64,000 nucleotides of DNA. Origin: Polyangiaceae bacterium. Its GTDB lineage: Bacteria; Myxococcota_A; Polyangia; Polyangiales; Polyangiaceae. Position numbers and translations under genes: made by a program. Under the pieces are notes generated by a model that was given only the letters and a program-made list of their open reading frames with translations, was not told the origin of the DNA and did no database searches. The DNA lies in assembly GCA_025937835.1 (NCBI GenBank), contig JAICQO010000015.1, forward strand, positions 1-64,000. The letters run 5' to 3'. Positions 61,054 to 63,898 of this stretch are shown here, piece by piece (positions within the stretch are counted from its first letter, which is position 1; every line of letters begins with the position of its first letter).

Positions 61054-61800
61054 TCAGCTGGCGGACAGGACCGGCTCGCCCGCCGGTCCGCGGCCAAGGC
61101 CGCAGGCCCGCGCCACGGCGTCGCGATAGCCCAGCCAGGCCGCATGGGTCTTTTCGAGGGCCTCGACCGCGATCGGGCGCGCGCCTTCCGGGACCGCGTC
61201 GAGGATCACCTTCCAGGCGGCTTTTCGGTGGTCGCCTTCGACGCTGCGGTGAGCCTTGGTGAGCGCCAGGTGCTCGACCGGCAAGCCATAATGGCGCACC
61301 AAGGGGTGCTGCTCGAGGGGCGGAGGCGGAACCCGAACGCCCTCGAGCTCGCGCCGCTCGTTGGCCGTGCCCTCCAGAAACAGGGTCGTGACCACCGCCG
61401 CGGCCTCCCAGCCCTCGCGCAGCGTGAAATGGTCGATGATGTCGCGTAAGTGTCGGGACTCAGGGAGGAGCTCGACGGCCTCGAACCGCGACACGTCCAT
61501 GCCGAGCCCCCTCGGGTACTCGAGGAACAGCTCGGGATGTGGGCGCCCTGCGGCAAGGCCGCCCGTCTCCTCTTCGTACACGTTGGCGATCAGCTCGCGA
61601 CGCGCCTCGGCGACCGGGCAAGCCACGTAGGCGCGCGCCACGAGCACTGGGAAGTCGCGCACGTACACCGCGTACTCTTGCTCCAGATGAACGTGCAGTC
61701 GCTCGCGCGGCACGAGCCCCGAGGTGAACCCGGGCCAGGCCCAGTGGATCTTGCGATCCATCACGGCCAAGAGCGCCTCGCGGAACTCCGAGCGGTTCAT
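61054..61800 (-). CDS. Haem-oxygenase-fold protein of the PqqC/TenA-like group
   Basis: 248 residues, helical throughout. Candidate iron-ligand residues lie at typical places: Glu in LHVHLEQEYAVYVRD, EEETGG after IANVY, and His/Asp in KAHRSVEGDHRKAAW. This matches iron-containing PqqC-like or CADD-like redox enzymes of the haem-oxygenase fold, which act on a wide range of substrates. No PQQ genes are adjacent. It is the first gene of the set leading to the PDZ lipoprotein, ygfZ and cysK (45 nt upstream of the lipoprotein). Confidence 0.8.
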   Translation of the reverse strand: MNRSEFREALLAVMDRKIHWAWPGFTSGLVPRERLHVHLEQEYAVYVRDFPVLVARAYVACPVAEARRELIANVYEEETGGLAAGRPHPELFLEYPRGLGMDVSRFEAVELLPESRHLRDIIDHFTLREGWEAAAVVTTLFLEGTANERRELEGVRVPPPPLEQHPLVRHYGLPVEHLALTKAHRSVEGDHRKAAWKVILDAVPEGARPIAVEALEKTHAAWLGYRDAVARACGLGRGPAGEPVLSAS

Positions 61801-61960
61801 GCGTGCCTCTTGCTCTACCTCGACGACTCGGCAGAACGAAATTTTGGTCTCGCAACGTGACCCTCGGCTCCCGTCGAGCGGCCCCCGAGCCAGGGCGTCT
61901 CGCGCGAGTGCGATGATCCAACGTGCCGAAGTGCGCGGTCGGCGTTATCCTTGAGGTTAG
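61801..61960. promoter_or_regulatory. Divergent intergenic region
   Basis: 160 nt between the starts of the PqqC-like gene (minus) and the amidotransferase-like gene (plus). It must contain both promoters; no consensus pair was clear. Confidence 0.4.
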
Positions 61961-62791
61961 ATGGCGCGACTGTTCGGCTTCATCGGCAATCGCTCGGACC
62001 TCGGTGCGAGGGTGCTCAAGTCGAATGTGGACATCCTGCGAGTCACTCGGAAACCCGATGACCCGCTGGGGTGGGGCATTGGCTTCTACCAGGCCGGCGA
62101 AATCCTCCTCAGGCGGCGACCGATCGACGAACGCGAGGAAATCGATCTCACCGAAGCCGCCGAGGACATCCGCACGGACGTGTTGATCGGCCACGTGCGG
62201 CGCGCGAGCGTCGGCGCGCTGCGCACGGAAAACACCCACCCGTTCCGCTATCGGTCGTGGGTGTTCGCGCAGACCGGCACAATCGACGGTTTCGAGGGGC
62301 TGCGCGAGCGGCTGCTCGCCTCGCAGCCGGAGTTTCTGCGACGCAACGTGCGCGGCGAGACCGACAGCGAGTGCTTCTTCTACCTGTTCCTGTCGTTCCT
62401 TCACGACGCCGGACACCTCGACGACTCACACGTCTCGGGCGAGCACATCGCCGCGGCGCTGCGCGCCTCCATCGCGCTCGTCGATCGGCTCTCGGCCGAA
62501 GAAGGCTACGGCCCGAACACCGGCAATATCCTGGTGACCAACGGCGAGACCATGCTGGCGGTGCACCGCGACGGGCTGATGGCTCACCGCGTGGTTCGCG
62601 GCAAGTTCGACGTCGAAGAGCTGCTCGGCGAGGACGGCGCCCGCCAGGCGCGGATCCCGAGCATCGACAGCACGCACTTCACGATCATCGCGTCCGAGCT
62701 CGAGGCTTTGCCCGCGGGCTGGACGTCCGTCGAGGGGCGGTCGATCGTGACTCTGTCGCGCACCGAAGACCCCGTCGTCGAACCGATCTGA
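61961..62791 (+). CDS. Class II glutamine amidotransferase-like protein lacking the catalytic Cys
   Basis: 276 residues. Resembles the YafJ-type Ntn amidotransferases (GWGIGFYQAGE, GHVRRAS..ENTHPFRY, GETDSECFFYLFLSF). The family begins Met-Cys, and the Cys is freed as the N-terminal nucleophile. Here the second codon is GCG (Ala): MARLFGF. A TAG stop is directly in frame before the ATG and GAGG lies just upstream, so the start is secure. The oxyanion-hole H-N-G segment reads AQTGTIDGF, losing the Asn. Glutamine hydrolysis is not expected; it may bind a ligand or act as a regulatory partner. The ATG of the next gene overlaps the stop. Confidence 0.85.
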   Translation: MARLFGFIGNRSDLGARVLKSNVDILRVTRKPDDPLGWGIGFYQAGEILLRRRPIDEREEIDLTEAAEDIRTDVLIGHVRRASVGALRTENTHPFRYRSWVFAQTGTIDGFEGLRERLLASQPEFLRRNVRGETDSECFFYLFLSFLHDAGHLDDSHVSGEHIAAALRASIALVDRLSAEEGYGPNTGNILVTNGETMLAVHRDGLMAHRVVRGKFDVEELLGEDGARQARIPSIDSTHFTIIASELEALPAGWTSVEGRSIVTLSRTEDPVVEPI

Positions 62792-63417
62792 TGCGCAGCT
62801 TCGGCGCGGGGGTGCTGGTCGCGATCGCCGTGGGCTCGTGCGCCCCGAGCGCTGCGCGCTTTCCCACGAGTGAGGCGAGAGAATCGGACGCGCCGCGCCG
62901 CGCGCCGGGCGTCGCGGTGGACCCGGAGCTCGAGCTACCCGAGGCCGCGCCGCGTGGCTCCACGGAGTCGTTGCTGATGGTGCTGTCGACGCCACGCGAC
63001 CTGAAACGCGCCACGGAGATGGTCGCCGCCTATTTCCGGGCGATCACCCGGGAGTCGGGCGAAGCGCTCGAGCTCGTGCTGTCGAGCGAAGCCTCGCTCG
63101 AATCGAGCTCCGGCCGCTCTCCGGCGCGCGCCGCCTGGCGCTCGCGCTTCGCTCAGTTCGACTACCAGTCGCTGCGCAGCGCGTCCCTTTACCGCGACGC
63201 GGATCTCGAGACCTACCGCGGCAGCGATCAGCCAGAGCTCGCGTTGCAGCGGCACCTGCCCGAGATGCGGGACGACGAGGTGTTCGTCCGCGTGCGGCTC
63301 GACGTGACCCGGGTACAGAAGACCCGGCTGTTCGCGGACGAGATCGGCTTTTTGATGCGCCCGCGGGGCGCCGGCTATCAGATCGTGAAGATCAGCGAAG
63401 ACTTCACGGCGCCGTGA
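62791..63417 (+). CDS. Putative lipoprotein, unknown function
   Basis: 208 residues. Signal peptide ends in lipobox AVGSC. A charged N-terminal part is followed by an alpha/beta domain (about 80-205, YFRAITRESGEALELVLSS... and ending YQIVKISEDF) that looks like an NTF2-like or SnoaL-type fold. Its ATG overlaps the previous stop (TGATG). The convergent neighbour has a similar-looking NTF2-like protein, so the two may be distantly related. Confidence 0.72.
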   Translation: MRSFGAGVLVAIAVGSCAPSAARFPTSEARESDAPRRAPGVAVDPELELPEAAPRGSTESLLMVLSTPRDLKRATEMVAAYFRAITRESGEALELVLSSEASLESSSGRSPARAAWRSRFAQFDYQSLRSASLYRDADLETYRGSDQPELALQRHLPEMRDDEVFVRVRLDVTRVQKTRLFADEIGFLMRPRGAGYQIVKISEDFTAP

Positions 63418-63418
63418 C

Positions 63419-63898
63419 TCACATGCCGGCGACGATCTTGAACGTTTCGCCGGAGCGCACGAGCTCGAGGCGATTGTCCGCGACCTCGCGCCGCCACACG
63501 TCTTCCCCGCCCTCGGTCGTCGGGACCTTGTAGCTCGCGGTGTACGTGTAATCGACGAAGATGCTGTCGTTGCGGCGGCCGGGCGTGACCTGGCGGTAGC
63601 GGATCTCGTAGCGGATCGCCTTGGCCTTCCGGAACTGGCCCTCGAGGAACTCTTTCAGGCCGGCGTAGTCGTGGTCGTCGCTGGTATCCACGCTGCCGCC
63701 GTCCTCGTAATAAGAGGCATCTGCGAACTTCATCAGCTGCCCGACGTTGCGGAGCTCGACCGCGCGCCGGTACCGCTCGCAAAACTCGATCACGCTGCGA
63801 TTCAGGTCCGTCTCTTCGACGTCCGTGTTCGGGATGTAATGCTTGGCGCAGCCGAGGGGCAGCACGGACAGGGCGAGAGCAACGAGCAGGGACCGCAT
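63419..63898 (-). CDS. Putative lipoprotein with NTF2-like domain
   Basis: 159 residues. Lipobox LPLGC, then a domain with features of an NTF2-like fold: a helix FCERYRRAVELRNVGQLMKF, the DASYYEDGG segment and late strands (YTYTASYKVP, RLELVRSGETFKIVAGM). Such domains bind small ligands or dimerise. The stop is 1 nt from the convergent gene's stop. The window ends about 100 nt beyond its start. Confidence 0.75.
   Translation of the reverse strand: MRSLLVALALSVLPLGCAKHYIPNTDVEETDLNRSVIEFCERYRRAVELRNVGQLMKFADASYYEDGGSVDTSDDHDYAGLKEFLEGQFRKAKAIRYEIRYRQVTPGRRNDSIFVDYTYTASYKVPTTEGGEDVWRREVADNRLELVRSGETFKIVAGM

Follow-up and report, generated by a model that had tools for sequence, protein, structure and literature searches.

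The window, that is, the whole 64,000-nucleotide stretch of DNA that was analysed, carries a gene for a stand-alone protein of the class II amidotransferase fold that lacks the catalytic Cys and belongs to a strongly supported Myxococcota clade in which this Cys is absent throughout; the best explanation is that it belongs to a family of pseudo-amidotransferases that is ancient in these soil bacteria and has been kept by vertical descent. The gene (61,961–62,791, + strand) encodes 276 amino acids and a stop codon, and its product begins with Met-Ala-Arg (start codons ATG GCG), where the second codon (GCG, 61,964–61,966) specifies Ala at the position that, by alignment, is occupied by the nucleophile Cys in all Cys-bearing relatives. 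The sequence-only reading had pointed out this Met-Ala start, together with the family motifs GWGIGFY, ENTHPF, and GETDSE and the string AQTGTI in place of His-Asn-Gly (H-N-G), and all of these were found in the protein: Gln104-Thr105-Gly106 (62,270–62,278, + strand) stands where H-N-G is expected, with the Gly kept and the oxyanion Asn lost. The in-frame TAG immediately 5' of the ATG (61,958–61,960, + strand), which had been taken to exclude a missed N-terminus, was also confirmed and rules out a longer form. In addition, the protein keeps Arg80 (62,198–62,200, + strand), which is equivalent to the substrate-carboxylate Arg (Arg73 of PurF and Arg48 of human asparagine synthetase), and Asp135 of GETDSE (62,363–62,365, + strand), which is equivalent to Asp96 in the substrate-recognition network of human asparagine synthetase.

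The family assignment was supported by profile searches, in which residues 35–257 matched Pfam GATase_4 (PF13230; 4.5e-16, 59 bits against a cut-off of 23) and the protein also matched GATase_6 (2e-10). With respect to the features of class II (Ntn) amidotransferases, the protein has the GATase_4 profile, the predicted Ntn alpha-beta-beta-alpha fold, and, by alignment, the substrate-binding Arg and Asp, and it fails in the N-terminal Cys nucleophile (Ala2) and in the oxyanion Asn of H-N-G (Thr105). An AlphaFold model built from the family alignment (pLDDT 92.9, pTM 0.90) predicted, with high confidence, that the fold is intact. The closest structural matches were 3mdn (Z 23.5), the YafJ-type protein 1te5 (Z 21.8), the C1A mutant of GlmS with glutamate (3ooj, Z 21.6), EgtC (Z 21.5), and the C2A mutant of EgtC with its natural substrate (4zfl, Z 20.8). 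The stand-alone YafJ-type/GATase_4 amidotransferases, represented by 1te5, 3mdn, and E. coli YafJ, have the same length, fold, and single-domain architecture and share the motifs GWG, NTHPF, and G-x-T-D-S-E; however, the window protein lacks their Cys2 and H-N-G Asn, and its clade has its own conserved Leu49, Pro54, Arg96, and Pro123. EgtC, the amidohydrolase of ergothioneine biosynthesis (4zfj/4zfk), is alike in fold and in the N-terminal position, but the score of the window protein with the EgtC equivalog model (TIGR03442) was 65 bits, below the cut-off of 218.65, and the neighbouring genes that were examined included no recognisable Egt gene. The structural alignment starts at residue 2 of the model, which is placed opposite residue 2 of the C2A mutant of EgtC and residue 1 of the C1A mutant of GlmS. 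In these laboratory mutants, Cys was changed to Ala at the same position, and they were solved with substrate or glutamate. The window protein thus carries by nature the change that was made in the laboratory to trap ligands, and it may be a natural version of such substrate traps, except that it additionally lacks the H-N-G Asn, which is still present in the two mutants, as they are single point mutants. Class II Ntn-type domains that do not act as glutaminases are present in the beta-lactam and carbapenam synthetases. These domains (1jgt and 1q15) matched the model with Z values of 10.9 and 8.4, respectively, and are fused to the synthetase, whereas the window protein stands alone.

The lack of the Cys was then found to be a property of a whole lineage. 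We extracted 131 distinct Myxococcota proteins of the window lineage, 65 of which constitute the window subclade, together with 19 Cys-bearing relatives as controls (13 Myxococcota paralogues and 6 from other groups, drawn from E. coli (YafJ), Actinomycetota, a Roseobacteraceae, Legionella, and a haloarchaeon). In the alignment, Cys2 was present in 0 of the 131 lineage proteins and in 19 of the 19 controls, and the oxyanion Asn105 was kept in 9 of the 131, compared with 19 of 19 controls with H-N-G, so that the loss of both residues, noted originally for a single protein, is clade-wide. Residue 2 was Ala in 66 proteins, Ser in 32, Gly in 14, Thr in 5, Arg in 4, Pro in 3, Lys in 3, and Glu, Phe, Asn, or Tyr in one each; in 120 of the 131 it is a small residue that would allow removal of the Met. 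Four of the Ser2 proteins retain the full H-N-G and both Arg80 and Asp135. The question raised from the sequence, whether Ala2 is conserved in a clade, can be answered for the window subclade, where Ala2 was found in 60 of 65 members, Arg80 and Asp135 in 63 each, Gly106 in all 65, and Thr105, which mostly replaces the oxyanion Asn there, in 59. In a careful tree of 99 representatives including Cys-bearing outgroups, the 77 Myxococcota non-Cys proteins formed one clade (bootstrap 100, SH-aLRT 98, 200 of 200 bootstrap trees) and all Cys-bearing proteins lay outside it, the outgroup proteins themselves not falling on one side of a branch. Because the clade is single and strongly supported, the lack of Cys in the lineage is, as judged from the aligned sequences, far beyond chance. 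The simplest reading would be that the Cys was lost once before the sampled Myxococcota classes diverged and was never regained. Ser2 is scattered over deep branches, Ala2 marks the window subclade, and Gly2 is concentrated in neighbouring families of the order; a path from Cys to Ser and then to Ala or Gly is plausible. Matches were present in 37 of 39 related genomes and, with both the Cys-bearing and the non-Cys type counted, in 306 of 378 genomes across the phylum.

The non-Cys amidotransferase is under strong purifying selection, since dN/dS was 0.04–0.16 between close pairs, and the selection was stronger than that on the neighbouring lipoprotein gene (about 0.17–0.48). A loss of catalytic residues common to one clade is thus combined with purifying selection, as in a pseudoenzyme clade. 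A sequencing error, a missed N-terminus, or a decaying pseudogene, for which no supporting evidence was found, can be regarded as refuted by the TAG before the ATG, by dozens of independently assembled genomes in which the frame is intact and the residue state is the same, and by the dN/dS values. Nor were there close homologues with Cys at this site, which would have pointed to such an error; within the genome, the most similar protein with Cys is a paralogue of 33% identity. When 273 columns of the non-Cys clade were ranked by conservation, position 2 dropped to rank 112 and Asn105 to rank 211, whereas Gly106 (9), Asn91 (16), Thr134 (18), Arg80 (36), and Asp135 (47) stayed high and Pro94 and Glu137 were invariant. 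Pro54, Leu49, Arg96, Pro123, Gln44, and Phe125 are fixed in the non-Cys clade and freer in the Cys-bearing relatives; the first four reach 100%, 99%, 99%, and 99%, compared with 41%, 23%, 31%, and 34% for the commonest residue in the Cys-bearing relatives at the same columns.

The retained Arg80 and Asp135 may represent anchors for a ligand. Arg73 of PurF contacts the substrate amino acid (PMC7953260), as do Arg48, Asn74, Gly75, and Asp96 of human asparagine synthetase (PMC6748925), and the correspondence of Arg80 and Asp135 to these residues was made through shared motifs rather than through superposition of side chains. Arg80 is kept in 113 of the 131 proteins, and both residues together in 107 of the 131 and in 61 of the 65 members of the window subclade. 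At least one of the two was lost in 24 of the 131, on about nine occasions on the tree, and in several subclades both are gone, the gene being kept nevertheless; therefore, the family as a whole cannot have ligand binding as its function. Small residues at position 2 go together with kept anchors in the raw counts (Fisher p 5e-5), but this association was dropped as support, as independent pairs on the tree showed no effect and it was not significant once relatedness was considered.

The window protein is very probably dead as a glutaminase, as had been predicted, given that the nucleophile and the oxyanion Asn are lost clade-wide and the pocket would be unable to attack an amide. As for its function, we give an even chance to a pseudoenzyme that serves as a ligand binder or sensor, binding but not hydrolysing glutamine or an amino-acid ligand similar to it. 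Glutamine, or an amino acid or gamma-glutamyl compound related to it, would still occupy the old active site, and surfaces that only this family conserves (Leu49, Pro54, Arg96, Pro123, and Gln44) could convey to a partner whether the ligand is bound. The retained Arg80/Asp135 pair lends indirect support to the ligand-binding role proposed earlier. The main rival, which is possible though we consider it rather unlikely, is that the fold is kept only as a protein-binding platform and that the remaining pocket residues are structural leftovers. Such a scaffold would agree with the newly conserved Pro54, Leu49, Arg96, and Pro123, which lie outside the catalytic set, and with the subclades that have dispensed with one or both anchors; however, it does not readily account for the presence of each anchor in 63 of the 65 proteins of the window subclade, even though these proteins are often only 43–55% identical to the window protein. 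It is improbable that the same pocket has been repurposed for other chemistry, with Ser2 or Thr2 as the nucleophile or by non-hydrolytic catalysis with Ala2 or Gly2. Other Ntn hydrolases use Ser or Thr as the nucleophile, and the 32 Ser2 and 5 Thr2 proteins, above all the four Ser2 proteins with an otherwise complete site, could in principle use the residue in this way, but Ala or Gly, which have no nucleophilic side chain, account for 80 of the 131, and in the window protein Ala2 is accompanied by the loss of the oxyanion Asn.

The 33%-identical paralogue mentioned above (L002, G000:C2:27983-28585) begins with Met-Cys-Arg and has A-H-N-G, and both proteins are present in the window genome and its genus, which raises the question of whether the window protein is a regulatory subunit of this active enzyme. 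This reading is very unlikely. The two genes are not adjacent, and their distributions do not support an obligate partnership: one genome (G305; 13.3 Mb, 2 contigs) has the non-Cys gene (4.5e-95) with only weak matches to the Cys paralogue (1.4e-27 at best), and in family f16, where the Cys paralogue is present (about 1e-83 to 1e-96), the window protein gives matches only at the level of that paralogue.

The sequence-only reading had further proposed that a ligand sensor is coupled to the lipoprotein encoded next, and in this respect the gene pair proved to be conserved. The lipoprotein gene (62,791–63,417, + strand) overlaps the amidotransferase gene by one base, the stop codon of the latter and the ATG of the former sharing the sequence TGATG (62,789–62,793, + strand), and encodes 208 amino acids with a lipobox V-G-S-C containing Cys17 (62,839–62,841) and an NTF2/SnoaL-like domain at residues 67–208. 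Cys17 was the sole invariant column among 44 relatives. The model of the mature domain (pLDDT 86) is NTF2-like in fold, matching NTF2-like proteins and CaMKII hub domains with Z 11.5–13.6 over about 106–128 residues at 2.5–3.9 Å, and 887 of 1000 candidates in the structure search reached a Z of at least 8; Pfam support from SnoaL_2/DUF4440 was weak (5 of 44 members). The gene lies directly downstream in 61 of the 64 subclade loci with room for it, as well as in 12 more loci within the order, and in no locus outside it. An obligate pair was nevertheless rejected, as each gene was found without the other. In one genome (G092, 99% complete), the lipoprotein is present, but no amidotransferase of the lineage could be recognised, either within 550 bases upstream or in the rest of the genome (best match 5.5e-14); the contig ends nearby there, and an assembly gap may be responsible in part. 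Conversely, at least two genomes (G019 and G173) have the amidotransferase and gave no match to the lipoprotein. Moreover, the lipoprotein, being lipidated and exported, and the amidotransferase, which has no signal peptide, should lie on opposite sides of the inner membrane. Because the genes occur apart and the products should lie in different compartments, direct coupling is doubtful. In three loci (L049, L050, and L079), the amidotransferase frame is without its usual stop, with TTA for TGA, and continues for about 410–480 codons, crossing the lipoprotein gene out of frame; the reading frame of the lipoprotein itself is intact. The long frames in L049 and L050 (761 and 687 amino acids) were rejected as domain fusions, as TTA replaces the expected TGA there.

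Other neighbours varied among the lineages, and among those examined no partner gene common to the whole non-Cys clade was found. A divergently oriented gene for a haem-oxygenase/TENA-like protein (61,054–61,800, − strand) adjoins the amidotransferase gene in nine subclade loci. In five loci of family f5 (L030, L057, L109, L111, and L113), the lipoprotein gene is replaced by a CutA-like gene directly 3' of the amidotransferase gene, at a distance of −4 to +13 bases; CutA has a PII-like fold. A gene named from its sequence as asparaginyl-tRNA synthetase lies directly upstream on the same strand, 39–586 bases away, in 12 subclade loci (L013, L015, L023, L039, L071, L072, L077, L081, L086, L095, L096, and L119); six more distant loci have it downstream, at about 2 kb. 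Another small ORF of lipoprotein-like type (63,419–63,898, − strand), convergent with the first lipoprotein gene and near the amidotransferase gene in 15 loci, may also be NTF2-like.

We tentatively suggest, as a possibility of rather low probability, that a single early loss of the nucleophile in Myxococcota gave rise to stand-alone sensors of glutamine or gamma-glutamyl compounds, which would hold the ligand unhydrolysed and report nitrogen or amino-acid status to lineage-specific cell-envelope or nitrogen-related partners, such as the NTF2-like lipoprotein in much of the order and CutA in one family. Non-glutaminase class II domains within synthetases are already known, whereas a stand-alone clade without the nucleophile is apparently new; no description of such a phylum-wide, single-origin family was found in the literature searched, which covered few subscription papers. 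Public annotation names the family glutamine amidotransferases, yet a lineage across the phylum cannot use the chemistry of that family. If its members bind without cutting, they would offer a natural series (Cys, Ser, Gly, Ala, and a fully lost pocket) for studying the change of an enzyme into a sensor or scaffold and, in bacteria whose regulation is unusual, a candidate sensor of amino acids.

A related state was observed in a group reached through a KSB1 record, in which a GATase_4 relative is present in all six sampled genomes (L062 and L169–L173). The Cys was lost in five of the six proteins, with the starts of L171 and L172 placed by alignment, and the Asn of H-N-G in all six; L170 still has Met-Cys. 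Since these proteins branch outside the Myxococcota non-Cys clade, the tree suggests a second, probably independent loss of Cys, which is perhaps ongoing and, if independent, would allow comparison of the evolutionary path. An origin of the window lineage from mobile elements was rejected, as 37 plasmid records and 1 phage record gave distant matches only, all below 60% identity. In a Natrinema plasmid record (L177, 601–1440), a Cys-bearing amidotransferase frame contains an in-frame stop 35 codons past the conserved Met-Cys start, and the annotation of the record places the start later, which would take away the Cys.
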